From an uncultured Pedosphaera sp. (GTDB lineage Bacteria; Verrucomicrobiota; Verrucomicrobiia; Limisphaerales; Pedosphaeraceae), in contig CAIXFN010000053.1 of assembly GCA_903918755.1 (NCBI GenBank), positions 1 through 40,200 on the forward strand: a stretch of DNA of 40,200 nt, written 5' to 3'. The notes under the pieces are model-generated. The model did no database searches and had not been told where the DNA came from. It worked only from the letters and a program-made list of their open reading frames with translations. The translations under genes were made by a program, and so were the position numbers. Positions 6,240 through 17,527 of the stretch are shown here, one piece after another. Numbering within the stretch: position 1 is the first letter of the stretch; every line of letters begins with the position of its first letter.

Positions 6240-7202
6240 ATGCGACAATTTGTAACCATCGCGGGCAATGCCTTCATGGAACTGGTGCGGCAACCGGTTT
6301 TCTTATTGCTCATGACCAGTTCAGCGGTGTTCGAGATTTTTCTCGCCACACCGTTGTATTTCGCTTTCGGGGATGAACCGAAGCTGGTGAAAAACAGCGT
6401 TTTGGCGGTGATGCTGCTCGTGGGGCTGTTCGGGGCAGTCATCACGGCCTCGGTTTCCCTGGCGCGGGAAATCCGGACGGGCACCGCTCTGGCCGTGTTG
6501 TCCAAACCCGTGGGCCGCGCCGGTTTCCTGCTGGCTAAATACATGGGCCTGGTGCTGGCACTTTCCCTCCTCACCTTTGTCAATATGGTGGCGGCCCTGT
6601 TGGCCAGTCGGATGGCCTTCGACGCCTACGGCTCGGTGGATCTCTTCGCCGTGGCGGTTTTTGCCGGCGCGATGGTGTTGGCGTATCTGCTGGGCGGATT
6701 CAGCAATTTTTTCCTGCGCCGGCCGTTCGTGTCGGATGCGGTCTTCGGCGTGGTGTTGATGGTGGTGCTGGCGTTCCTGGTCATCAGTTCCTTCGATAAG
6801 GAAGGCAAAGCCCAGGAATTTGCCAAGGGCGTGGATTGGCGGATGATTCCGGCATCGGTGCTGGTTTTGTTCGCGTTGTGGATTTTGGCGGGTTTGGCTC
6901 TGGCGTGTGCCACGCGGTTGGACATCATCCCCACGCTGGCGGTTTGCTCCGGGATGTTTTTGCTGGGCATGATGTCGCAGTATCTCTTTGGGGAAAAGGC
7001 TGCGGCGGGCACCTGGTGGGCGTCCGTGCTTTACACGGTCACCCCAAATTGGCAGCTTTTTTGGCTCGCTGACGTGCTGGACACCGGGAAATCAGATTTT
7101 CACTGGGGCTACGTGGCCAAGGCGCTGGCGTATGCCGTCTGCTATATCGGCGCGGTGCTGTCGGTGGCGGTCGTGTTGTTTGAAGACCGGGAATTAAGTT
7201 AG
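6240..7202 (+). CDS. ABC-2 type transporter permease
   Basis: A 320-residue inner-membrane protein with about six hydrophobic segments (roughly residues 18-40, 50-75, 95-115, 130-155, 160-180, 205-240 and a last one near 295-313). The segment LAREIRTGTALAVLSKPVGRAGFLLAKYMG is characteristic of ABC-2 permeases that export lipids, polysaccharides or proteins: an amphipathic coupling stretch before a helix. It opens the operon; the matching ATPase is five genes downstream (13316), next to a second permease (14561), so the two permeases may form a heterodimer. The substrate is unknown. The start ATG 6240 has GTGGA just upstream. The next gene starts 9 bp later. Confidence 0.8.
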   Translation: MRQFVTIAGNAFMELVRQPVFLLLMTSSAVFEIFLATPLYFAFGDEPKLVKNSVLAVMLLVGLFGAVITASVSLAREIRTGTALAVLSKPVGRAGFLLAKYMGLVLALSLLTFVNMVAALLASRMAFDAYGSVDLFAVAVFAGAMVLAYLLGGFSNFFLRRPFVSDAVFGVVLMVVLAFLVISSFDKEGKAQEFAKGVDWRMIPASVLVLFALWILAGLALACATRLDIIPTLAVCSGMFLLGMMSQYLFGEKAAAGTWWASVLYTVTPNWQLFWLADVLDTGKSDFHWGYVAKALAYAVCYIGAVLSVAVVLFEDRELS

Positions 7203-7210
7203 GCCTGATA

Positions 7211-9100
7211 ATGGAACGGAACATACAGAAAAACGGACTGATCAACCTGGCGCTGCTGGCAGTCGGGGCGATCAGCGCGTACTTGGTGGCGCATAACGGC
7301 AATTCCCTGGCCGGCCAGGTGGGTGCCTGCTTGATGGGGGTGGGTGTGCTGGTGGCCGCCATCAGCTGGTTCCAAGCGCGCCTCGAGGAGCGCGAACGGC
7401 TCGAAAAACTGGAGTTCGATGAACTCAGCCGTTCGGCCACCAATTCGGCCCTGTTCACCGCTTCGGAAACCGAAATCCTGCCCGCGCAACGGTCCCGGGA
7501 GCAATTTGAGCGCATCATCGTGCCGGTCTTCACCGGGTTGCTGGTGCTCGCGCAAATCCTGCTCGCCGTCTATTTCTGGCGCCAGTTGGCCGGCGGGAAC
7601 AAGGTCGTTCCTCGGGATCTCCAGTTCGGCATGGCCTTTTTTGCGGTCGTGGCCCTGGTTCTTTTTGTGGTCGGACGGTTTTCCGCGGTCATCGCCCGGT
7701 TGGAGAAAATTCGCCTGCTGCAGCCGAGCGCGACGTATTTGCTGCTCAGCGCCTTCGTGAGCAGCTTTATCACGGCGGGCTATTTTGGCGTCTGGTTCGG
7801 CTATCCCCAGTCGGACCTCTATCTGGCGCGCGGTTTTTGCGTAGTGCTGGGCCTGGTGGCAACCGAGACCTTGCTGAACCTGATTTTGGAAATTTACCGG
7901 CCGCGGATGAAGGGCAAGATCGAACGCCCCGTCTATGACAGCCGCTTGGTCGGCCTCTTGGGGCAGCCCGAAGCCCTGGTCACCACCGCCGCCCAAACCT
8001 TGGATTACCAATTTGGTTTCAAGGTATCCGAGACGTGGTTTTACCGGTTTTTCGAACGCGCCCTGGGCTGGCTGCTCCTGATTCAATTCGGCCTGGTGCT
8101 GGTCTCCTCCTGTCTCGTGGTGGTGGATCCCGGCGAGCAGGCCCTCCTCGAACGCTTTGGTCAACTGGCCAACAACCGCTTGCCGCTCGGTCCCGGCCTC
8201 CATTTGAAATTCCCCTGGCCGGTGGATCAAGTTTACCGCTATCCCACGGATCGCATTCAAAGTTTCATTATTGGCTCGGAACCGGATCCGAAAATCGAGG
8301 GCGGTAAAGTCATCCTCTGGGCCGCTCCGCATTTGTCGGAACAAAACTTCCTCGTGGCCAACCGCGATCTCGATGCCGTGGATGCCACCAACGCCGCCCC
8401 CGCCGGCGCCACTCAGCATCCGCCGCCCGGCAGCCTGCTTTCCACCAGCATTCCTGTCCAATTTCAGATCACCAACCTCGTCGAATGGGCCTATAACAAC
8501 GAGGAGCCGGTGGAATTGATCAAATACATCGCCAACCGGGAGGTGATTCGTTACCTCGTCGGCATGGATCTGAATGATGTCATGTCCATCAGCCGCTGGG
8601 ATGCCGCGAACACGCTCCGGGAACGGATCCAAAAAGGCGTGAACGAGCACCAGATGGGCGCGCAAATTGTCTTCGTGGGCTTGCAGGACATTCACCCGCC
8701 CACCAAGGTCGCCCCCGACTACGAAAAACGGGTGGGCGCGACCATCACGCGGGAGACGGTCATCCTGGCCTCCCGTGCGGCGGCTTATTACACCAATGTG
8801 ATGGCGTCCGCCCGGGCCTCGAATATTCTCAGCGTCGCCCAGACGGATCGGCTCCGCCGGAATGTGGACCTGCAGGCGCAGGAAGCGGTCTTTACCAACC
8901 AGTTGCCGGCCTATGCCGCCTCGCCTTCCGTCTTCATTCAGCGGGCCTACCTCGCCACCCTGTCGCATGCGCTGGCCAATTCGCGCACCTATCTGCTGCT
9001 GGGTACCAACTCGCAGGAAACCATGATCCTGAACCTGGAAGACAAAGTGCGGAAAGATATCTTTGATTCCATTGCCGTGCCCTCGCCCAAGAGCAAGTAA
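7211..9100 (+). CDS. Polytopic SPFH (HflK-like) membrane protein
   Basis: 629 residues. About seven hydrophobic helices precede the SPFH domain (approx. 10-28, 34-54, 102-124, 138-160, 174-195, 205-226, 284-304). A conserved-looking linker (YRPRMKGKIERP, DYQFGFKVSETWFYRF) leads to the last helix. The SPFH/Band 7 domain starts at about residue 300 (VVDPGEQALLERFGQL, GPGLHLKFPWPVDQVYRYP) and is followed by an Ala-rich helical part. Classical HflK has a single helix, so the N-terminal membrane block is an addition. Such proteins assemble into membrane cages that organise proteases or transporters. It is the first of three consecutive SPFH genes, with 24 bp to the next, so a hetero-oligomer is likely. 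No strong ribosome site is visible. Confidence 0.85.
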   Translation: MERNIQKNGLINLALLAVGAISAYLVAHNGNSLAGQVGACLMGVGVLVAAISWFQARLEERERLEKLEFDELSRSATNSALFTASETEILPAQRSREQFERIIVPVFTGLLVLAQILLAVYFWRQLAGGNKVVPRDLQFGMAFFAVVALVLFVVGRFSAVIARLEKIRLLQPSATYLLLSAFVSSFITAGYFGVWFGYPQSDLYLARGFCVVLGLVATETLLNLILEIYRPRMKGKIERPVYDSRLVGLLGQPEALVTTAAQTLDYQFGFKVSETWFYRFFERALGWLLLIQFGLVLVSSCLVVVDPGEQALLERFGQLANNRLPLGPGLHLKFPWPVDQVYRYPTDRIQSFIIGSEPDPKIEGGKVILWAAPHLSEQNFLVANRDLDAVDATNAAPAGATQHPPPGSLLSTSIPVQFQITNLVEWAYNNEEPVELIKYIANREVIRYLVGMDLNDVMSISRWDAANTLRERIQKGVNEHQMGAQIVFVGLQDIHPPTKVAPDYEKRVGATITRETVILASRAAAYYTNVMASARASNILSVAQTDRLRRNVDLQAQEAVFTNQLPAYAASPSVFIQRAYLATLSHALANSRTYLLLGTNSQETMILNLEDKVRKDIFDSIAVPSPKSK

Positions 9101-9124: not shown

Positions 9125-10033
9125 ATGAAACGAAACCTCCTCACGATCATCACCGGCGCCGTCCTGCTGGTCATTTTCATCCTTTTGTTGTTCACCTTCC
9201 AGGTCCGGCAATCCGAAGTCGCCGTGGTCACCTTATTCGGCCGCCCGGTCCGTTCGGAAAAGGATCCCGGCCTCAAATTCCGGTTTCCCTGGCCGGTCCA
9301 TTCCGTCCACAAGTTCGACCAGCGCATCCAGAACTTTGAGGACAAATGGGACGAAGTCCAGACCTCCGACAGTTATATCGTGGTGGCCGGCGTCTATGTC
9401 GGCTGGCGCATCAGCGATCCCCAGGCGTTTTTGCCGCGCTTCGCCAACGGCTCCATTCCGGAAGCCGAACGGGTCCTCGAGGGCCTGATCCGCAGCGCCA
9501 AGGCCGCCGTGATCGGCAAACACCCGTTGTCGGATCTGGTAACCACGGACGAGCGCCAATTGAAGTTTGCCGAGATCGAGGCCAAAATCCTCGAGTTGGT
9601 ACAGGCGCAGGTCCAATCCAAGAATTATGGTCTGGAATTGAAATATCTCGGCTTCAAGAAGCTCGAATTTCCAGCCAGCGTTTCCCAGGAAGTCTTCAAG
9701 CGCATGCAATCCGAACGCGCCCTCCTCATCAGCCAGACCCAATCCGAGGGCGAATCGGTCGCCAGCAACATCGTGACCACCGCCAATGCCAAGAGCGCGG
9801 AAAAGATTTACAACGCGGAAGCCGAAGCCACGCAGATCCGCGCCCTGGGTATCAAGGAGTCCGCGGCTTCCTTTGCCGTCTTCCAAAAGAATCCGGAACT
9901 GGCGAAGTTTCTGGCCAATTTGAAAGCCCTGGAATTGTCGCTCGGAGAACACTCGACCCTGATTTTCGATCAGTATAACGAGCCGTTTACCCTGTTCCAA
10001 AATTACACCACCAACTCCGTTCCCCGGAAATAG
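9125..10033 (+). CDS. HflC-like SPFH protein
   Basis: 302 residues: one N-terminal membrane helix (about 7-25, LTIITGAVLLVIFILLLFTF), then an SPFH domain (VRQSEVAVVTLFGRPV, DPGLKFRFPWPVHSVHKFDQR) and a long helical C-terminus (SERALLISQTQSEGESVASN, KIYNAEAEA) as in HflC and prohibitins. The length is close to E. coli HflC (about 334). Its partners are presumably the SPFH proteins encoded on either side; the gap to the next gene is only 4 bp. In well-studied bacteria the HflK/C cage surrounds the FtsH protease. No FtsH gene is in this window, and here the neighbours are a metal ATPase and ABC transporter parts. Confidence 0.85.
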   Translation: MKRNLLTIITGAVLLVIFILLLFTFQVRQSEVAVVTLFGRPVRSEKDPGLKFRFPWPVHSVHKFDQRIQNFEDKWDEVQTSDSYIVVAGVYVGWRISDPQAFLPRFANGSIPEAERVLEGLIRSAKAAVIGKHPLSDLVTTDERQLKFAEIEAKILELVQAQVQSKNYGLELKYLGFKKLEFPASVSQEVFKRMQSERALLISQTQSEGESVASNIVTTANAKSAEKIYNAEAEATQIRALGIKESAASFAVFQKNPELAKFLANLKALELSLGEHSTLIFDQYNEPFTLFQNYTTNSVPRK

Positions 10034-10037
10034 CGGC

Positions 10038-11246
10038 ATGAGCGAACCACACGATCATTCGCATCCCGGTCACTCACACGGGCACGATCATGACCACGAC
10101 CATGATCATGATCATGGCCACGATCATGGCCACGATCACGGGCATAAGCATTCCCCGCCGCCCCCCGGCACCCCGCCGCCGCCCTCCGGCCCCGGTGGAT
10201 CCGGTTCCGGGGACGACGCTGGCTCGCAGGCTCTGGCGGAGGCGCTCGGCAGCAGTTTCTTCATTGTCCGGGTCCTGATGGTGGGCTTGGTCGCCTTGTT
10301 TTTCGCGAAATGCTTCTTCATTGTCGGGCCCCAGGAAAAGGCGGTGGTGCTGCGCTTTGGCAAGGCCCAGGGCGTGGGGAACGCGGCGTTGCTCACGGCC
10401 GGCTGGCATTTTGCCCTGCCGTTTCCCATCGATGAGGTGAAGCGCATCCCCATCCAGGAAATTCAAAAGGTGGAATCCACCACGGGCTGGTATTTTGTCC
10501 CCCCGGAAATGGTGGCCATGAACGTGGATCCCGCCGGCAGTGCCTCCCTCAATCCGGCGCAGGATGGCTACGTGATCACCGGGGATACCAACATCCTCCA
10601 CACCAAGGCCACCCTTTCCTACCGGATCAACGATCCCATCCGCTTCGAATTCGACTTCGTGAACGCTTCGAACGCCTTGCAGGGCCTGCTCGATAACGCC
10701 CTGCTGTCCGTGGCGGCCCACTATCAAGTGGACAAAATTCTCCGGGATGATGTCGCCGGCTTCCGGGAGCGCGTGCAGGCGCGCGTCGCCCAATTGGTAC
10801 GGGATTACGATCTCGGTATCACCGTGGAACAATGCCAGGTGGAAAGCCGGCCGCCGCTGTTCCTGAAGGCGTCCTTTGAAAGTGTCAATACCGCCCTCTC
10901 CACCCGCGACAAAATGCGGAATGATGCCAAAAGCTATGAAAACCGGATCATGAGCCGCGCGGACTCCGAAGCCTCCAGCCGCCTCAGCAGCGCCCAGGCG
11001 GAACGGTTCCGGATGGTGAAACAGGTCCAGGCCGACGCCCAGCAATTCTCCGACATTTTGCCGCTCTACGAGGGCAATCCCGACCTCTATCACCATTTGC
11101 TCCTCGCCGAAAAAATCGGCCAGGTACTGACCAACGTGCAGGACAAGTGGTACTTGCCGCAGCGCACCGATGGCAAATCCCGCGAACTGCGGTTACAATT
11201 GAGCCGCGAGCCGTTGAAACCCGCGGCCGCAATGTCGAACAATTAA
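10038..11246 (+). CDS. HflK-like SPFH protein with His-rich N-terminus
   Basis: 402 residues. The first 40 are a metal-binding-type tail of repeated HD/HG/HGHD units with about 18 histidines, then a Pro/Gly linker (PPPPGTPPPPSGPGG), a single membrane helix (about 75-96) and an SPFH domain (VGPQEKAVVLRFGKAQG, WHFALPFPIDEVKRIP) with a helical C-terminus (ENRIMSRADSEASSRLSSAQAERF). The His tail should lie on the cytoplasmic side if topology is N-in as in HflK. The next gene, a P1B ATPase, has the same kind of tail, so this protein may gather or sense divalent metal for the pump. That link is inference from adjacency (15-bp gap) and shared composition. Confidence 0.83.
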   Translation: MSEPHDHSHPGHSHGHDHDHDHDHDHGHDHGHDHGHKHSPPPPGTPPPPSGPGGSGSGDDAGSQALAEALGSSFFIVRVLMVGLVALFFAKCFFIVGPQEKAVVLRFGKAQGVGNAALLTAGWHFALPFPIDEVKRIPIQEIQKVESTTGWYFVPPEMVAMNVDPAGSASLNPAQDGYVITGDTNILHTKATLSYRINDPIRFEFDFVNASNALQGLLDNALLSVAAHYQVDKILRDDVAGFRERVQARVAQLVRDYDLGITVEQCQVESRPPLFLKASFESVNTALSTRDKMRNDAKSYENRIMSRADSEASSRLSSAQAERFRMVKQVQADAQQFSDILPLYEGNPDLYHHLLLAEKIGQVLTNVQDKWYLPQRTDGKSRELRLQLSREPLKPAAAMSNN

Positions 11247-11261
11247 ACGGAGCCCATTTGT

Positions 11262-13280
11262 ATGCAAGTTACGTCTTTGTTGAGCCAGCACGAGCATGAC
11301 CACGATCACGGCGGTGCGGATTGTTCCGTCTGCGGCCATGATCACGCGCCGGTCCGCCTTTGGCAGACGCTGATCGGGGTGGTGTTTGTCCTAAACGCCT
11401 ATGTCGTCGATTGGTTGTTCCAGTCCGCTGAGCGCGTGTCCAGCGCCAGTGCCCTGCTGGGTGCCGTCATCCTAGGCTACCCCATCGTGGTCACCTCCGT
11501 GAAAGACCTGTGGAAGGGGATTCTTAGCATTAACGAACTCGTGGGCATCGCCATCATCGCCTCCTTTGCTTCGGGCGAATACAAAACCGCCGGGGTTGTG
11601 GCGTTTTTCATGCTGATGGGCGAAATCATCGAAACCCGTACCGCCGAAGGCGCGCGGGAATCGATCGAGTCCCTCATCAAGCTGACTCCGACCAAGGCCC
11701 GCCGTATTGTCGGCAAAGGCGAGCAGGAAGTCGCCGCGAAGGATCTCGCCGTGGGTGATGTGATCCGCATCCGGCCCGGTGACAATGTGGCCGCCGACGG
11801 CGTCATCGTGAATGGTCAGGGTTCTTTCAACCAGGCCACCATCACCGGCGAATCCCTGCCGGTGGACAAGAAACCGGGCGACGACGTTTTCGCCGGCACG
11901 CAGAATTTGACGGGCGTTTTGGAAGTGCGGGTCAGCCGTGCCGGCCAGGACACCACGCTGGGCAAGGTGCGCGAACTCATCCTGGCGGCGGAAAAGACCA
12001 AGCTTCCGCTCATGCGGATCATCGACCAGTACATGAGCTTTTACACCCCGCTCGTCCTGGTCATTGCTGCGCTGGTATGGGCCTTCACCCATGATTTCAA
12101 CCGCGTGATCTCGGTCATCGTGGTTTCCTGCCCCTGCGCCTTTATTTTGGCGACGCCCACCGCGATGGTGGCCGCTCTTTCCGCCGCCGCCCGCCTCGGG
12201 ATCCTGATCAAAAACGTCGGCGACATCGAAGCCGCCGCCCGCATCAACGCCCTCGTGATCGACAAGACCGGAACGCTGACCACCGGTAAACTGGCCGTGA
12301 GCCGCCTGGCTCCCTTGGGCGAAACCGCCCCGGCCGAATTGTTGCGGCTGGCCGCCTCGGCGGAAAAGTACAGCAACCATCCCACGGCCAAGGCCCTCGC
12401 CATCCTGGCGGACGAAGCCGGCGTGCCCCTCGCGGAACCCAAGAACTTCGCGGAAACCGCCGGTCGGGGCATCAAGGCCGAGGTGGACGGCAAAGCCATC
12501 ATCGTGGGACGCGCCCAGTGGTTGAAGGACAACGGCGTGACGGAGGATTTCCTCAAAGCGGTGGACCTGAATGAGACCGAGGGCTTCAGCCTGTTGTTCA
12601 TTGCCCGCGAAGGCAAGTGCATCGGTTGGGTGGGACTGCAGGATCAAACCCGCCCCGAAGCCCGCGAGGCGCTGGCCGAACTTAAGGCCATCGGGGTGCG
12701 GCGCATCGCGATGGTTTCCGGCGACCGCCAGCCGGTGGCCGTCCGGGTGGCCCGGGAAATCGGTTGCGAAGAAGTCGTGGGTGATTGCCTCCCGCAAAAC
12801 AAGGTGGAATTTGTCCGCGCGGTCAAACTCAAAGGGTATCGCGTCGCGGTCGTCGGTGATGGCGTCAATGACGCTCCCGCCCTGGCCGCCGGCGACATCG
12901 GCATCGCGATGGGCGCGGCCGGCAGCGAAGTGGCAATTCACAGCGCGACCATTGCGCTCATGAACAATGACCTGCGCCGGTTACCCTTCCTCATCAGCCT
13001 CTCGCGCAGCACCCGCGCTGTGATCAATCAGAACCTGCTCTTCGGGATTTTATTCATCCTGGGCGGCTGGTCGTTCTTCTCCATCGGCCCCGTGAGCAGC
13101 CCGATCATCGCCGCGATCCTGCACATGACGGGTTCGTTTATTGTGATTTTCAACAGTGCCCGCCTGGTCCGCAAGGGCGAGGAACTGGAACATTACGCCC
13201 CCGCCGTGGCGGAAACCGGCGGTACCGCCACCGGCAGCACCCCGTCCGGTGGCGCGCAACTCACTCCCAAGCTGGCCTGA
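11262..13280 (+). CDS. P1B-type heavy-metal translocating ATPase
   Basis: A 672-residue inner-membrane metal pump. The N-terminus has no GMTCxxC domain but a short His/Cys tail (HEHDHDH, C21xxC24, GHDHAP). Actuator loop TGES is near 195, the CPC ion-site motif is C290-P-C292 in helix 4, the phosphorylation site DKTGTLT has D334, the P1B signature SNHPTAKAL is near 370, and GDGVNDAP is near 530. Helices 7 and 8 read NQNLLFGILFILGG and AAILHMTGSFIVIFNSARL. They lack the Lys and Asp typical of Zn/Cd pumps, and only partly resemble the N/Y and MxxSS of Cu pumps, so the metal cannot be assigned. The family exports metal from the cytoplasm. It sits between SPFH and ABC genes in one operon. Confidence 0.93.
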   Translation: MQVTSLLSQHEHDHDHGGADCSVCGHDHAPVRLWQTLIGVVFVLNAYVVDWLFQSAERVSSASALLGAVILGYPIVVTSVKDLWKGILSINELVGIAIIASFASGEYKTAGVVAFFMLMGEIIETRTAEGARESIESLIKLTPTKARRIVGKGEQEVAAKDLAVGDVIRIRPGDNVAADGVIVNGQGSFNQATITGESLPVDKKPGDDVFAGTQNLTGVLEVRVSRAGQDTTLGKVRELILAAEKTKLPLMRIIDQYMSFYTPLVLVIAALVWAFTHDFNRVISVIVVSCPCAFILATPTAMVAALSAAARLGILIKNVGDIEAAARINALVIDKTGTLTTGKLAVSRLAPLGETAPAELLRLAASAEKYSNHPTAKALAILADEAGVPLAEPKNFAETAGRGIKAEVDGKAIIVGRAQWLKDNGVTEDFLKAVDLNETEGFSLLFIAREGKCIGWVGLQDQTRPEAREALAELKAIGVRRIAMVSGDRQPVAVRVAREIGCEEVVGDCLPQNKVEFVRAVKLKGYRVAVVGDGVNDAPALAAGDIGIAMGAAGSEVAIHSATIALMNNDLRRLPFLISLSRSTRAVINQNLLFGILFILGGWSFFSIGPVSSPIIAAILHMTGSFIVIFNSARLVRKGEELEHYAPAVAETGGTATGSTPSGGAQLTPKLA

Positions 13281-13315: not shown

Positions 13316-14533
13316 ATGAGCCTTACCGAAACTCTTTCGCCACCCGCCGCCTCCCGGTCCGCCCCGGCGGAAAACGTTATCGTGGTGCAGGGCCTCACCA
13401 AGCTCTTCAAGGATTTTTGGGGTCGCTCCAAGGCGCGCGCCGTGGATAACGTCAATTTTGAAGTGCGACGCGGGGAAGTGTTCGGACTGTTGGGGCCCAA
13501 CGGCTCGGGCAAGTCCACCACCGTCAAGATGTTGCTGGGGCTGTTGCATCCCACGAAGGGCCGGATCGAGGTCTTCGGCCATTCGCCCCGGCACGTGGCC
13601 ACGAAGTCGCGCATCGGCTATCTGCCGGAGGAGTCCTATCTCTACCGGTATTTGAATTCCCACGAAACTCTGGCCTTTTTTGGCGACCTGTTCCGGTTGC
13701 CCAGCGGTGAACGGGATAAGCGGGCCGAGCAGTTGTTGGAGATGGTCGGGTTGAGTCAGACCCGGACGCGCGCCGTCGGTGAATTTTCCAAGGGCATGCA
13801 GCGTCGCATCGGTCTGGCCCAGGCGCTCATCAATGATCCGGACCTGGTCATTCTCGACGAACCCACCGCGGGCCTGGACCCGATTGGTTGCCGGGAAGTG
13901 AAGGACTTGATCCTGGCCCTGGCGCGCCGCGGCAAGACCGTGATTCTCAGCAGCCATTTGCTTTCGGACGTCGAAGACGTTTGCGACCGCGTGGTGATTT
14001 ATTACGGGGGCAAAATCCAGGCCATGGGCACCTTGAAAGAGTTGCTCGCCACGCCCGACGTCGTCCGCATCACCAGCCCCGTCCTGCGCCGTGAGACCAT
14101 GGAACGGGTTCTGGCTGTCATCCGGCAGGATGTGGCGCAGGACAAGGTGCGGATCGACAATCCCACCCAAAACCTCGAGAGCTATTTCCTGGAAGTGGTG
14201 CAAAAGGCCCGGGCCGCCGCGGAAGCCACCTCGGGCGCGACGTCCGGCCATCGCGTGGCGGAGTATTTGCGTGGGGAGGCGGAAGCGAAACCTTCCACCG
14301 AGCGGGTTCTGGAAAGATTGACCGCCCCGATCGCGGCCACCTCGCCCGCCCCCGTTGTCACCGAAGTGGGGTCGGCGGTGGATAGCAAAAAGCTCGCTGC
14401 CTTGACCAAGACCGAGACCACCCCGTCCGCCGCCTCCGCTCCGGCAGCGAACCCGGCCGAAACCACCGCGCCGAAAGTGGATTTGAACAAGGCGAATGAA
14501 AAACTTTCCTCGCTCTTGGGGAAACCGAAATAG
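13316..14533 (+). CDS. ABC transporter ATP-binding protein with long C-terminal tail
   Basis: 405 residues. Walker A GPNGSGKST is at 60-68, the signature SKGMQRR near 159, Walker B LVILDEP near 178 followed by TAGLDP, and the switch His in LSSHLLSDVED near 219. These are all the parts of an active ATPase of the ABC-2 drug/lipid/polysaccharide class. From about residue 300 the protein runs into an Ala/Thr/Pro-rich, probably unstructured tail (KTETTPSAASAPAANPAETT) not needed for ATPase activity, ending in a Lys-rich patch. It presumably energises the permease encoded immediately downstream (27-bp gap) and perhaps the one at 6240. Confidence 0.92.
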   Translation: MSLTETLSPPAASRSAPAENVIVVQGLTKLFKDFWGRSKARAVDNVNFEVRRGEVFGLLGPNGSGKSTTVKMLLGLLHPTKGRIEVFGHSPRHVATKSRIGYLPEESYLYRYLNSHETLAFFGDLFRLPSGERDKRAEQLLEMVGLSQTRTRAVGEFSKGMQRRIGLAQALINDPDLVILDEPTAGLDPIGCREVKDLILALARRGKTVILSSHLLSDVEDVCDRVVIYYGGKIQAMGTLKELLATPDVVRITSPVLRRETMERVLAVIRQDVAQDKVRIDNPTQNLESYFLEVVQKARAAAEATSGATSGHRVAEYLRGEAEAKPSTERVLERLTAPIAATSPAPVVTEVGSAVDSKKLAALTKTETTPSAASAPAANPAETTAPKVDLNKANEKLSSLLGKPK

Positions 14534-14560: not shown

Positions 14561-15946
14561 ATGCGACCGATTTTCGCGCTCATCTCGCTTACCTGGAAGG
14601 CGGCTTTCCGTTACCGCCTATTCTGGGTGCTGACCGTCCTGCTCCTGGGCGCGGTGGTGCTGTTGCCCGCTCTGGTGAAGGATGATGGCACGGTCGAAGG
14701 CTTCACCCAGATTTTGCTGACTTATACCCTCAGCGCGGTCACGGGTATTCTCGGGATGTGCGCGCTCTGGCTTTCCTGCGGCACCCTGGCGCGGGACATC
14801 GAAGATTGCCAGATCCAGATGGTGGCCGTGAAACCCATCGCCCGCTGGCAAATCTGGCTGGGCAAGTGGTTGGGCTTGTTGACGTTGAACGCCACGCTGC
14901 TGGCCCTTTCCGGTGCGGGGATTTATGCGCTGCTGGAAATCCGCTCCAAGAAACTTCCGGCGGACCAACAGGCCCGCTTGCGGGAAGAGATTCTGGTGGC
15001 CCGCGCCTCCGTGAAGGAAGCCAGTCACGACGCCGAAATCGAAGCCGAAATGGAGCGCCGCTTCAACGAGCGGATGAAGAAGAACCTGATGCAAAACCTG
15101 AACCTCGACACCATCCGCGCCCAGTTGCGCGAGCAGGTGCGGGCGGAAGGGCAGGCCATCGGGCCCGGCGATTACCGGCGCTGGATCATGCATATCGGTT
15201 CCGCCCGGGAGCAACTCAAGGATCGCCCCCTCTTCGTCCGCGTGAAGTTCAATACCCTCGACAACAGCGAATACGGAACTTTTGGCGCGGTTTTCCGGAT
15301 CGGCACGGAACAGAAAACGCGGCTTTACCAGACCGATGTCATGAGCCTGGCGCCCAACACGTTTCATGAATTCCCCGTTCCGCCGGGCCTCATTGACGAC
15401 AATGGCGACCTGATCATCGAATACGCCAACCCGAATTCGGTTGCCCTCATTTTCCCCTTGGAAGACAGCATGGAGGTTCTTTATCGCGAGGGCGGTTTTG
15501 GCCTGAACTACTGCCGCGGTCTGGGCATCATCCTTTGCTGGATCACCCTCTTGAGCACGCTGGGTTTGGCCGCGGCCAGCCTGCTCTCCTTCCCGGTGGC
15601 CGCGTTTTTCTCGCTGGCCATCTTGCTCATGGGCTTCTCGAGCGGCACCCTGGCCAACGTGGTGAGCGAAGGCACTTTGATGGGTTTCAATGAGGAAACC
15701 AGCCAGATGGGCCATTCCAAAATCGATGTCGTGGCCGTGCCCTTTTTCAAGGCGCTGCTCAACTTGATTCAGTTGGTCCAACAATTCGCCCCGATTGACG
15801 CCCTCAGCACGGGCCGCGTGATTTCCTGGGGGCAATTCGGTCTGGCCGTCGGTCAGATTGTCTTCCTCATGGGCGGCCTCATGGCGGCCACGGGAATTTA
15901 TTTGTTCCAGCGACGGGAACTGGCCACCGCCCAGGGGACTCACTAA
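14561..15946 (+). CDS. ABC-2 type permease with large soluble insertion
   Basis: 461 residues. Three or four membrane helices lie at the N-terminus (about 15-35, 50-75, 105-125), with the ABC-2 coupling stretch LARDIEDCQIQMVAVKPIARWQ. A soluble insertion spans about residues 130-315. It begins with a charged coiled coil (REEILVARASVKEASHDAEI, EAEMERRFNERMKKN) and continues as a beta-rich part. Three or four more helices follow from about 320 to the end. The insertion should face the periplasm and may contact substrate or a partner. The next gene starts 3 bp after the stop, so it is almost certainly co-translated. Confidence 0.83.
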   Translation: MRPIFALISLTWKAAFRYRLFWVLTVLLLGAVVLLPALVKDDGTVEGFTQILLTYTLSAVTGILGMCALWLSCGTLARDIEDCQIQMVAVKPIARWQIWLGKWLGLLTLNATLLALSGAGIYALLEIRSKKLPADQQARLREEILVARASVKEASHDAEIEAEMERRFNERMKKNLMQNLNLDTIRAQLREQVRAEGQAIGPGDYRRWIMHIGSAREQLKDRPLFVRVKFNTLDNSEYGTFGAVFRIGTEQKTRLYQTDVMSLAPNTFHEFPVPPGLIDDNGDLIIEYANPNSVALIFPLEDSMEVLYREGGFGLNYCRGLGIILCWITLLSTLGLAAASLLSFPVAAFFSLAILLMGFSSGTLANVVSEGTLMGFNEETSQMGHSKIDVVAVPFFKALLNLIQLVQQFAPIDALSTGRVISWGQFGLAVGQIVFLMGGLMAATGIYLFQRRELATAQGTH

Positions 15947-15949
15947 GCG

Positions 15950-17527
15950 ATGCCCTCCAAAATTAAAAAAGCCCTCCTGCTTGGACTTTCCATCCTGCTC
16001 CTCGTCGTGGGTTCGCAGGCCGAGTGGATGCTCAATCACGAGCGGGAAGTTCTCGGGCTTTCCCGGTTTTCCGATTTGAAAGGGGCGCCCCCGGTGTTGG
16101 CCCTCACCACCATGGCCCTGGGCGGCTTTCGGGGTTTGATTTCCAACGCCCTGTGGATGCGGGCCACGGATTTGCAGGAAGAGGGCAAGTTCTTTGAAAT
16201 GGTGCAACTCGCGGATTGGATCACCAAACTTGAACCGCATTTCACCCACGTCTGGCTCGTACAGAGCTGGAACATGGCCTACAATATTTCCGTCAAGTTC
16301 AAGGACTACAAGGACCGCTGGCGCTGGGTCCAGCGCGGCATTGAGCTGCTGCGGGACGACGGTCTCCGTTACAACCCGCACGATGTGTTGATGCACCGCG
16401 AGCTGGCCTGGTTCTTCCAGCATAAGATGGGCGCGGACATGGACGACGCCCATATTTATTACAAGCTGCACTGGGCCATGAACATGAACGAGATTTTTGG
16501 CACCAACAACCTCACCGGCCCGCCGGGGTTGCCCAAGCCCGATTGGGAGCAATTGCTCCACCCTTCCAACACCAATTGGCAATTCCGGGTCAATCTCCTC
16601 ACCAACAAGTACAAGCTCAATCCGGTCAAGATGAAGGAAATCGATGACCGATATGGCCCTCTGGAGTGGCGCCTGCCCGAAGCCCACGCCATTTACTGGG
16701 CGGTGCTTGGGCTGGAGATGGCGGCGCTCAACGAGCGCAAAATCAATCCCGAGGATCTGATCACCCTCCGCCGCGTGGTTTACCAATCCATGCAGACCGC
16801 TTTTCAACGCGGCCGCTTGATTGCGGCCAACCCCGAGCGGAAAGCTTTCGAGTTCGGTCCCAATCTGGAAATTATTCCCAAGGTCAATTCCGCCTATGAT
16901 CAGGCCAAAGTGGATGACCCGAAGAATCGGGATCACATTGAAACGGCCCAGCGCAATTTCCTGCGGGACGTCGTCTTTTATCTCTACATGTACAACCAGA
17001 TCAACGATGCCGGACGCTGGTTCAAACATCTGGGTGAGGCTTATCCGGAAAAGCAATTGCTGGACGGCCGGCCAACGACGCTGCCGGGTCATCTCGAACT
17101 GTATGACTATGTGATCGGTCGTCTCGAAGAGGAAGTGGGCTCAACCGGCCGCAACACGGCCGAAATGATTCTCGAAGGACTGGAAGCCACGGCCATGCGC
17201 AGCCTGGCTGTCGGGGAAATGGACCGCTACCTCGGGTATGATGGCATGGCGGAACGCTTCTGGGAGCGCTACATGGCGAAAATTCCCGAGGGCGATGCCG
17301 CGGAGCGGATCCGCCTGGAATCCCTGCCTGAAATCCGCCGCATCGTGCTCAACCGCCTGGTCGCCTCCAAGACCCTGTCCGCCGAGGCCACTGGTCAGTT
17401 GCTCCAGGCCTTCCGCATCGCCCCCCCAAAAGCCGAGACTACCAACAGTCCCGCCGGCGACCTTAATCCCGCATTCAAGACCGGGACGGGAACGAATGCG
17501 CCAGCGGAATCGCCGCCGGCAAAATAA
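15950..17527 (+). CDS. Membrane-anchored protein of unknown function, last gene of SPFH operon
   Basis: 525 residues. One N-terminal hydrophobic anchor (KALLLGLSILLLVVGSQAEW) is followed by a helix-rich soluble part with many Trp/Tyr residues: ALGGFRGLISNALWMRATDL, VQLADWITKLEPHFTHVW, SWNMAYNISVKF, RWRWVQRGIELLRDDGLRYN and HRELAWFFQHKMG. The regular helix lengths suggest a TPR-like or similar alpha-solenoid scaffold; I do not recognise a named domain. I recall similar hypothetical proteins in related bacteria, but could not check. The C-terminal 40 residues are Ala/Pro/Thr-rich. A 3-bp gap to the permease points to function in the same membrane complex, probably on the periplasmic side. Confidence 0.7.
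   Translation: MPSKIKKALLLGLSILLLVVGSQAEWMLNHEREVLGLSRFSDLKGAPPVLALTTMALGGFRGLISNALWMRATDLQEEGKFFEMVQLADWITKLEPHFTHVWLVQSWNMAYNISVKFKDYKDRWRWVQRGIELLRDDGLRYNPHDVLMHRELAWFFQHKMGADMDDAHIYYKLHWAMNMNEIFGTNNLTGPPGLPKPDWEQLLHPSNTNWQFRVNLLTNKYKLNPVKMKEIDDRYGPLEWRLPEAHAIYWAVLGLEMAALNERKINPEDLITLRRVVYQSMQTAFQRGRLIAANPERKAFEFGPNLEIIPKVNSAYDQAKVDDPKNRDHIETAQRNFLRDVVFYLYMYNQINDAGRWFKHLGEAYPEKQLLDGRPTTLPGHLELYDYVIGRLEEEVGSTGRNTAEMILEGLEATAMRSLAVGEMDRYLGYDGMAERFWERYMAKIPEGDAAERIRLESLPEIRRIVLNRLVASKTLSAEATGQLLQAFRIAPPKAETTNSPAGDLNPAFKTGTGTNAPAESPPAK

Follow-up and report, generated by a model that had tools for sequence, protein, structure and literature searches.

Linked but unequal histidine-rich tails on an SPFH protein and the adjacent P1B-type ATPase in a conserved operon of Verrucomicrobiota

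An operon conserved in Verrucomicrobiota, in which three HflK/HflC-like SPFH genes are followed by a heavy-metal P1B-type ATPase, carries histidine-rich N-terminal tails on its last two products, SPFH3 and the ATPase. The tails are linked, as originally predicted. However, judged from the sequences, they are not a symmetric pair: the ATPase tail is widespread in the clade, whereas the SPFH3 tail is sporadic and appears as a repeated addition, so far, in the sample read, just where the ATPase is tailed. In the window, a 40,200-nucleotide stretch of DNA from an uncultured Pedosphaera sp., the two genes form the end of the four-gene core SPFH1-SPFH2-SPFH3-P1B ATPase (Table 1). The whole reading that we favor, with confidence that stands at an even balance, is a transition-metal pump like HmtA, scaffolded by SPFH proteins, with two cytosolic tails that would buffer and accept metal or else sense it.

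Table 1. Features of the conserved block in the window
Feature	Position	Strand	Details or basis
ABC-2 type permease, opens conserved block	6240..7202	+	Pfam; gene-order comparison
SPFH1, 629 aa: SPFH domain preceded by a hydrophobic N-terminal half	7211..9100	+	Pfam; gene order
SPFH2, HflC-like	9125..10033	+	TIGR01932 119.7 bits, below cut-off 134.4
SPFH3 gene	10038..11246	+	402 aa; HflK-like
SPFH3 N-terminal tail	10038..10223	+	62 aa before conserved core; 17 His
SPFH3 first helix, residues 61-92	10218..10313	+	AlphaFold model; HflK alignment
SPFH3 Band_7/SPFH domain, residues 94-286, HflK-like	10317..10895	+	Pfam PF01145
Heavy-metal P1B-type ATPase gene	11262..13280	+	672 aa; TIGR01525
P1B ATPase N-terminal His/Cys tail	11262..11357	+	32 aa, 6 His, 2 Cys; homologous tails share a CxxCGHDHEH core
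CSVCGHDH core of ATPase tail	11322..11345	+	C-x(1,2)-C...H count; per-position counts
CPC metal-site motif, residues 290-292	12129..12137	+	alignment of 24 relatives
His621, last TM helix	13122..13124	+	alignment of 24 relatives
ABC transporter ATPase, downstream block member	13316..14533	+	Pfam; gene order
Second ABC-2 type permease, downstream block member	14561..15946	+	Pfam; gene order
Conserved protein without Pfam match, closes conserved block	15950..17527	+	gene order

All histidines of the SPFH3 tail lie within its first 38 residues (10038-10151), close to the predicted 18 or so in 40, and are followed by a Pro/Gly-rich linker. In the AlphaFold model, the tail has no secondary structure and low confidence (ten-residue means 43-48). 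A single membrane span, read from the sequence, is assigned to the first helix. SPFH3 is a member of the Band_7 family (PF01145, 66.1 bits; Pfam cut-off 23.6), and HflK is its nearest solved relative: sequence comparison with 7vhp gave E=9e-28, and the top matches of a fold search were HflK chains (9cz2, 7vhq; best E=6.7e-21, TM-score 0.41/0.57). Its score against the HflK model TIGR01933 fell just below the curated cut-off (155.6 against 159.4 bits), so that, on these profiles, it is HflK-like without being classed as HflK. The E. coli HflK/HflC-FtsH structures (7vhp, 7wi3, 9cz2) share the SPFH fold after one N-terminal helix, whereas the window has three SPFH paralogues alongside a metal pump; the one FtsH-type peptidase found in the genome is on another contig. 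To our knowledge, E. coli HflK has no His tract.

The SPFH3 start codon is supported by its own family, given that all eight members keep the start 3-4 nt past the SPFH2 stop and a tail with at least nine His. Additionally, coding matches to H[DG]H[DG]H[DG]H are confined to two places in the 7.19-Mb genome (118 contigs), with none for a reversed control, and this rarity argues that the tail, one of the two, is more than chance; the second place is a nickel-insertion protein on another contig (Pfam Ni_insertion, 455.9 bits). A His-rich start is absent from the nine other Band_7 proteins found in the genome, namely SPFH1, SPFH2 and seven from other loci, which have at most 3 His in 60 residues.

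The ATPase tail, MQVTSLLSQHEHDHDHGGADCSVCGHDHAPVR, has the His/Cys composition that had been predicted; the range first delimited ended at 11340 and cut the CSVCGHDH motif. Per-position counts give CxxCGHDHEH as the core of homologous tails. A His tract at the start is absent from the other P-type ATPases read in the genome (the start codon of L119 is unsure), and Pfam returned no HMA domain in the ATPase, in which only the 32 tail residues would be available. The protein belongs to the P1B heavy-metal family (TIGR01525, 534.6 bits; curated cut-off 346.25). Profile scores gave no substrate: the Cd-family model TIGR01512, a broad model from which for that reason no substrate can be assigned, lies above its curated cut-off (462.5 against 313.5 bits), and the P1B-1 copper model TIGR01511 misses narrowly, by 0.2 bits (396.8 against 397). 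P1B-1 copper ATPases have Met at the last-helix site, where the window ATPase has His; by this residue and the TIGR01511 score, the protein is not classed as P1B-1. His621 is invariant across the 24 aligned relatives and aligns with the HEGST His of sCoaT; the site reads LHN in all five plasmid-borne relatives, and CPC reads CPG in one of the 24 (L062).

It is likewise not classed as P1B-4, the CoaT type. CoaT pumps carry SPC in TM6 and, in the last helix, HEGxT, whereas the window ATPase has CPC and HMTGS and shares only the His. The two resemble each other in the lack of an HMA domain, the metal-ligand-rich N-tail and the equivalent place of the last-helix His (sCoaT, PDB 7qbz). Removal of the first 33 residues of sCoaT is reported to have barely altered in vitro activity, which counts against the role proposed below for the tails, and the function of the N-tail of P1B-4 pumps was left open (PMC8880997).

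The gene order is well conserved. In 71 of 75 order-level stretches the ATPase gene comes after SPFH3, the four exceptions comprising three that stop at a contig edge and one different operon, and it does so in 26 of 29 further stretches from the phylum. The four-gene order also occurs on four annotated proteobacterial plasmids, from Klebsiella, Rhizobium, Paraburkholderia and Burkholderia. In a 41-row tree, the SPFH-linked ATPases fall on one side of a branch (SH-aLRT 91, not starred) against 11 other ATPases.

The tails were compared across 200 operons: 126 at order level, 26 and 40 from the phylum, 3 new ones and 5 from plasmids. The first two sets are the 152 loci (71 + 55 order-level, 26 others) kept from 184, after 24 duplicates, 7 loci without a readable ATPase and 1 with undetermined bases in a tail were dropped. 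Five of eight new loci gave no ATPase tail and were left uncounted, as was the plasmid relative H61; L308 was counted, since the open frame ahead of its SPFH3 core lacks His even though no start codon was found. Starts were set at the first ATG overlapping the upstream gene by at most 45 nt, or else at GTG/TTG, a rule that may misplace some of them.

At order level, 73 operons have the ATPase tail only, 41 have both tails, 12 have neither and none has the SPFH3 tail only. Of the 126 order-level operons, 114 thus have an ATPase tail with at least 4 His. Such a tail also occurs in 3 of 5 plasmid relatives, in just 4 of the 26 further phylum operons and in 29 of the 40 picked from other parts of the phylum, where some tails repeat the CxCGHDH unit; these 40 are a non-random pick that includes two chosen for a His tract already visible. 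The His-rich SPFH3 tail, apart from the 41 order-level cases, was found in 1 of the 40 and in L306. As 85 of the 126 order-level operons lack it, and none of the 5 plasmid relatives has it, this tail is not essential. With thresholds set after the tails had been inspected (at least 5 His for SPFH3, at least 4 for the ATPase), all 43 operons of the 200 with a His-rich SPFH3 also have the ATPase tail, and none of the 49 with a His-poor ATPase tail has a His-rich SPFH3. Under a single threshold for both proteins, the ATPase tail falls below it in 2 of 41 operons with a His-rich SPFH3 (5 His in any 20 residues) or in 3 of 32 (6 His). Furthermore, in each of two lineages, a single genome holds two operon copies, one with both tails and the other with neither. 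The original prediction was thus borne out in the linkage of the tails but not in treating them as an equal pair; operons lacking both tails, one of the outcomes named in advance as refuting it, do exist, but tails scattered at random on just one of the two proteins are not the pattern observed.

On phylogenetic contrasts, the two tails show correlated His counts (r=0.28, sign-flip p=0.0006), and the correlation persists without the window's own family. The shared variance is only about 8-13%. Control contrasts were flat for non-His length (r=0.015) and for the ATPase C-tail (r=0.028), while Glu and Arg counts also gave weak correlations (p about 0.03). The binary tail states were not significant on independent pairs, which were too few; a Fisher test of 41/73 against 0/12 gave p=0.009 with kinship ignored. 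One explanation for the link is that metal-rich habitats, or repeats prone to expansion, favor His tracts on many metal proteins across the genome, the two tails being joined only through sharing that genome. Tracts of H[DG]H[DG]H[DG]H outside the operon are indeed commoner in genomes with a His-rich SPFH3 (14/23 against 13/47, p=0.01). However, this raw association vanishes on phylogenetic contrasts (r=0.07, p=0.63), the tail-tail link stays when genome-wide tracts are held fixed (r=0.36, p=0.001, n=70), the paired operon copies differ within one genome, and the window's own genome has just one further gene with such a tract. We consider this explanation improbable.

The original prediction had cautioned that His tracts may arise by slippage. 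Perfect recent repeats would leave like neighboring codons, yet 130 of 246 neighboring His codons were alike across 25 SPFH3 tails holding 8 or more His, against 122.6 +- 7.1 after shuffling, and the array that Tandem Repeats Finder returned is imperfect (69-84% matches). That slippage explains the tract fully was rejected; recent slippage is not supported by the codon pattern, and older expansions may have contributed, so that the caution is weakened rather than removed. A broader alternative is that the ATPase tail is functional for metal while the SPFH3 His tract represents drift in a disordered, weakly constrained tail with no role at the pump. In its favor, SPFH3 tails are highly variable in length and content, the tree carries no fewer than 20 changes of the His-rich state, compared with 7 for the ATPase tail, and most order-level operons lack it, with the binary comparison falling short of significance. 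Nevertheless, the own-family tails all keep their His although the spacer residues vary (Asp, Gly, Ser, Glu), the codons are mixed, the SPFH3 counts follow the ATPase N-tail and not its C-tail, and a His-rich SPFH3 beside an untailed ATPase was not found among the 200 operons. We hold drift to be unlikely, though it deserves real weight.

The comparison with a studied locus bears on the direction of transport. In Pseudomonas aeruginosa, the set PA2434-PA2439 is reported to encode the P1B ATPase HmtA (PA2435) with the HflK/HflC-type proteins PA2437-PA2439 and to be upregulated when Zn is depleted (PMC4542158, PMC11761036). The PA2439 promoter is reported to be bound by Zur (PMC8531726). HmtA is reported as an importer of Zn/Cu (PMC8456098), while one NanoString study describes hmtA without Zn repression and suggests mainly a Cu importer (PMC8531726). 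No transport role is assigned to the SPFH genes of this locus in the parts of these papers available (PMC4542158, PMC11761036, PMC8531726). The window ATPase shows the HmtA-type make-up, being encoded with three HflK/C-type SPFH genes, and the P. aeruginosa cluster is Zn-responsive (PMC4542158, PMC11761036, PMC8531726); the window block differs in adding two ABC-2 permeases, an ABC ATPase, a conserved protein and the His-rich SPFH3. The proposed kinship with HmtA is drawn from gene content and the plasmid relatives. By this analogy, import is more likely than export.

P1B exporters take up their load from the cytosol. A fixed metallochaperone, in which the SPFH scaffold collects cytosolic metal and passes it on to the pump for export, would accordingly fit tails that HflK and P1B topology would both place in the cytosol and whose His counts co-vary; also in its favor, one source states that P1B-4 ATPases have no known zinc or cadmium chaperones (PMC8880997). 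The transfer from scaffold to pump that was originally proposed presupposes export in this way and fares poorly: the best-studied set of like make-up is reported to contain an importer, HmtA (PMC4542158, PMC11761036), under Zur control. Moreover, most often only the ATPase is tailed (73 of 126 order-level operons), which implies that SPFH3 is not a required donor. We regard the metallochaperone as distinctly unlikely.

In the reading that we prefer, the four-gene core would encode an HmtA-like transition-metal pump together with its SPFH scaffold. SPFH3 would adopt the HflK topology, with a cytosolic N-terminus and a periplasmic SPFH domain, and both tails would consequently be cytosolic. SPFH1-3 may form an HflK/C-like ring or cage surrounding the pump, which would gather many SPFH3 tails at its cytosolic mouth. 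These tails and that of the pump could bind Zn(II) or a similar ion; with metal bound, they would buffer and accept it locally, or would sense it and throttle the pump in a replete cytosol. If HmtA is an importer, as reported, metal may pass from the pump to the tails, or the tails may just sense it. Most likely, then, the two tails would together make up a single layer on the cytosolic side of the pump that binds metal, either buffering or sensing it. The tails might instead serve pH sensing or contact with nucleic acids or the membrane surface, with metal incidental, and alternating His/Asp might buffer protons. However, Cys pairs stand beside His (C-x(1,2)-C...H) in 101 of 126 order-level ATPase tails, the ligand set expected for metals, and the protein that bears this tail also has the CPC metal-site motif and, in its last helix, the invariant His; such other purposes seem very improbable. 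A bolder extension of the metal-binding layer, which we hold to be rather unlikely, is that the SPFH cage acts as a metal-responsive gate, with the many His tails and the CxxCGHDH tail forming a shared cytosolic metal site for loading, unloading or switching the pump; if true, it would be a scaffold-borne regulatory domain evolving together with the pump's own tail.

SPFH proteins are membrane organizers, and SPFH-linked metal pumps across Verrucomicrobiota and proteobacterial plasmids may name a likely client for those of bacteria. Among the literature matches listed, and in the parts of them available, the operon is not described for Verrucomicrobiota, and none of them describes a His-rich tail for an SPFH protein partnered with a P1B pump. 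The tails offer a testable handle in the natural operon pairs, with and without both tails, that occur within one genome.

The third of the three HflK/HflC-like proteins encoded in the window (SPFH3) and the P1B ATPase encoded directly after it both begin with a histidine-rich tail ahead of the conserved core, as the original prediction had described. Residues 1–38 of SPFH3 hold 17 His, within a region of 62 residues before the core, and residues 1–32 of the ATPase hold 6 His and 2 Cys; the two ORFs lie on the forward strand, 15 nt apart. The twin tails are confirmed and are not an artefact. The closest solved relative of SPFH3 is Escherichia coli HflK (E=9e-28), and a fold search gives 9cz2. 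In the AlphaFold model (mean pLDDT 76.9, pTM 0.52), the tail is unstructured and of low confidence, and a helix at residues 61–92 precedes the SPFH domain. If SPFH3 has the topology of HflK, its N-terminus would face the cytosol and its SPFH domain the periplasm, which would place both tails on the cytosolic side. No His-rich start was found in the nine other Band_7 proteins found in the genome (SPFH1, SPFH2, and seven elsewhere), nor a His tract at the start of its other P-type ATPases read, one of which has an unsure start codon.

Coordinates of the SPFH and pump genes in the window
Feature	Position	Strand	Remark
SPFH1	7211-9100		long hydrophobic N-terminal half precedes SPFH domain
SPFH3	10038-11246	+	ORF
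P1B ATPase	11262-13280	+	ORF

The concern that such tracts arise by slippage was weakened. Across 25 SPFH3 tails having 8 or more His, neighboring His codons were alike in 130 of 246 cases, near the shuffled expectation of 122.6 ± 7.1. Because codons are mixed and His is kept while the spacer residues vary, the tails point to selection on His rather than recent repeat expansion. The coding pattern H[DG]H[DG]H[DG]H occurs at only two places in the genome (7.19 Mb, 118 contigs): one is the SPFH3 tail, the other a nickel-insertion protein (Pfam Ni_insertion; G000:C76:141647-141679, locus L115).

The two genes belong to an eight-gene block comprising an ABC-2 permease, SPFH1, SPFH2, SPFH3, the P1B ATPase, an ABC ATPase, a second ABC-2 permease, and a conserved protein. 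Among named relatives, the nearest comes from an uncultured Pedosphaera genome, and most others bear the title Verrucomicrobia, with subdivision 3 or Limisphaerales given for many. Three loci in records titled Akkermansia muciniphila (L175, L216, and L217) have operons resembling those of subdivision 3, and these records are possibly mislabelled metagenome bins. Within the order, SPFH3 was matched in all 78 genomes searched, including its own, although the weakest matches may represent other SPFH proteins. The ATPase directly follows SPFH3 in 71 of 75 fetched order-level stretches; of the remaining four, three are cut off by the end of the contig and one does not represent this operon. An SPFH3 profile matched 148 of 240 genomes of the phylum at E≤0.001, other SPFH families included, and the ATPase lies directly downstream in 26 of the 29 loci read from that search. 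In one locus (L246), the ABC ATPase directly follows SPFH3 and the P1B pump is absent from the fetched stretch.

Of 184 loci, 152 were kept; the others were duplicates (24), lacked an ATPase that could be read (7), or had undetermined bases (1). Those kept comprise 126 order-level loci (71 from genome searches and 55 named, the latter assigned by likeness and titles) and 26 others. A tail was called His-rich at ≥4 His for the ATPase and ≥5 His for SPFH3. In the comparison of homologous operons suggested with the original prediction, the ATPase tail was, at order level, His-rich in 114 and the SPFH3 tail in 41, with 73 operons carrying the ATPase tail only, 41 both, 12 neither, and none the SPFH3 tail only. 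His-rich ATPase and SPFH3 tails occurred, respectively, in 4 and 0 of the 26 other loci, in 29 and 1 (L305) of 40 further loci drawn from elsewhere in the phylum, and in 3 and 0 of 5 plasmid relatives. Therefore, a His-rich tail is more frequent on the ATPase than on SPFH3, where it is an addition within this order and at least once outside it. Repeated CxCGHDH-like units with up to 20 His make up the ATPase tails of L274, L280, and L284. In L062, whose tails are His-poor, the metal-site CPC of the ATPase is replaced by CPG.

The His counts of the two tails co-vary on independent contrasts over a tree of core proteins (r=0.28, sign-flip p=0.0006, n=126), with 62 concordant and 39 discordant among 125 contrasts (p=0.028), and the link persists without the window's own family (r=0.29). 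Controls were flat for non-His length (r=0.015) and for the ATPase C-terminal tail (r=0.028, n=110). Among 11 other residues tested, weaker links appeared for Glu, with r=0.25 (p=0.027), and for Arg, with r=0.21 (p=0.034), and the other nine gave none at p<0.05. By raw counts, His tracts elsewhere in the genome accompany a His-rich SPFH3 (14/23 with versus 13/47 without, p=0.01), but this association disappears on contrasts, and the tail–tail link remains after controlling for such tracts (r=0.36, p=0.001, n=70). For binary tail states, independent pairs were too few for significance. The most direct control is given by genomes with two operons. In G075 (loci L037 and L064), both tails are His-rich in one copy (23 and 16) and neither is in the other (2 and 1 His), and two genomes of one genus, G271 (L232, L306) and G288 (L233, L305), each combine a both-tailed copy (10 and 7; 13 and 8) with a tailless one, as if the copies were specialised. 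Among the four other two-copy genomes read, neither copy has a His-rich tail in G123 and G203, and in G312 and G306 the ATPase tail of one copy has 7 or 5 His beside an SPFH3 that is not His-rich. An SPFH3 tail alone was never seen among the operons and two-copy genomes read.

Beyond the phylum, the four genes recur in the window's order on a Klebsiella aerogenes plasmid, as HflK-HflC-HflK-P-type ATPase, and likewise on plasmids of Rhizobium tumorigenes, Paraburkholderia sprentiae, and Burkholderia ubonensis. The Klebsiella ATPase shares 39% identity with that of the window over 558 positions, and the first HflK of its operon is also large (568 aa), comparable to SPFH1. All five plasmid-borne pumps have LHN, with His at the last-helix metal-site position as in the window's ATPase, where other P1B classes have Met or Asp and the CopA-like pump of the same genome has Met. 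CPC was seen in two plasmid pumps and was also read in the Klebsiella ATPase translation. The SPFH-linked pumps, 41 of the 52 ATPases placed in a tree, all fall to the same side of one branch (SH-aLRT 91, not starred); the other 11 are pumps of the window's own genome and of plasmids, some on long branches.

Such a set of a P1B ATPase and SPFH genes has been described in Pseudomonas aeruginosa (PA2434-PA2439), where the ATPase is HmtA (PA2435) and the HflK/HflC-type genes are PA2437-PA2439, with raised expression under Zn depletion (PMC4542158, PMC11761036). In two further reports, the PA2439 promoter is bound by Zur, although no Zn repression of hmtA itself was seen (PMC8531726), and PaFlo5-7 are three SPFH genes of one operon (PMC13086221), which, judging from locus numbers, would be the hmtA locus. 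The SPFH-linked pump with His tails is not a new kind of system; it is probably a variant of the one known from P. aeruginosa, in this case with a His tail on the SPFH scaffold that is specific to certain lineages and tied to the pump.

The best reading is a scaffolded pump with the tails as buffer or sensor: the ATPase's own tail would buffer or sense metal at the cytosolic mouth, and a ring of SPFH3 tails may assist it in some lineages. If the pump imports, as HmtA reportedly does, metal would travel from the pump to the tails, whereas the scaffold-to-pump transfer originally proposed requires export. The original interpretation is partly supported. The metal-ligand-rich N-tail of sCoaT counsels caution for the window's tails, since loss of 33 residues had minor in vitro effects, with an in vivo role still possible according to the authors (PMC8880997). 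His-rich C-terminal tails also occur in the ATPases of L071 and L090, and a number of other pumps share a shorter C-tail of the KHDHGSH-like kind.
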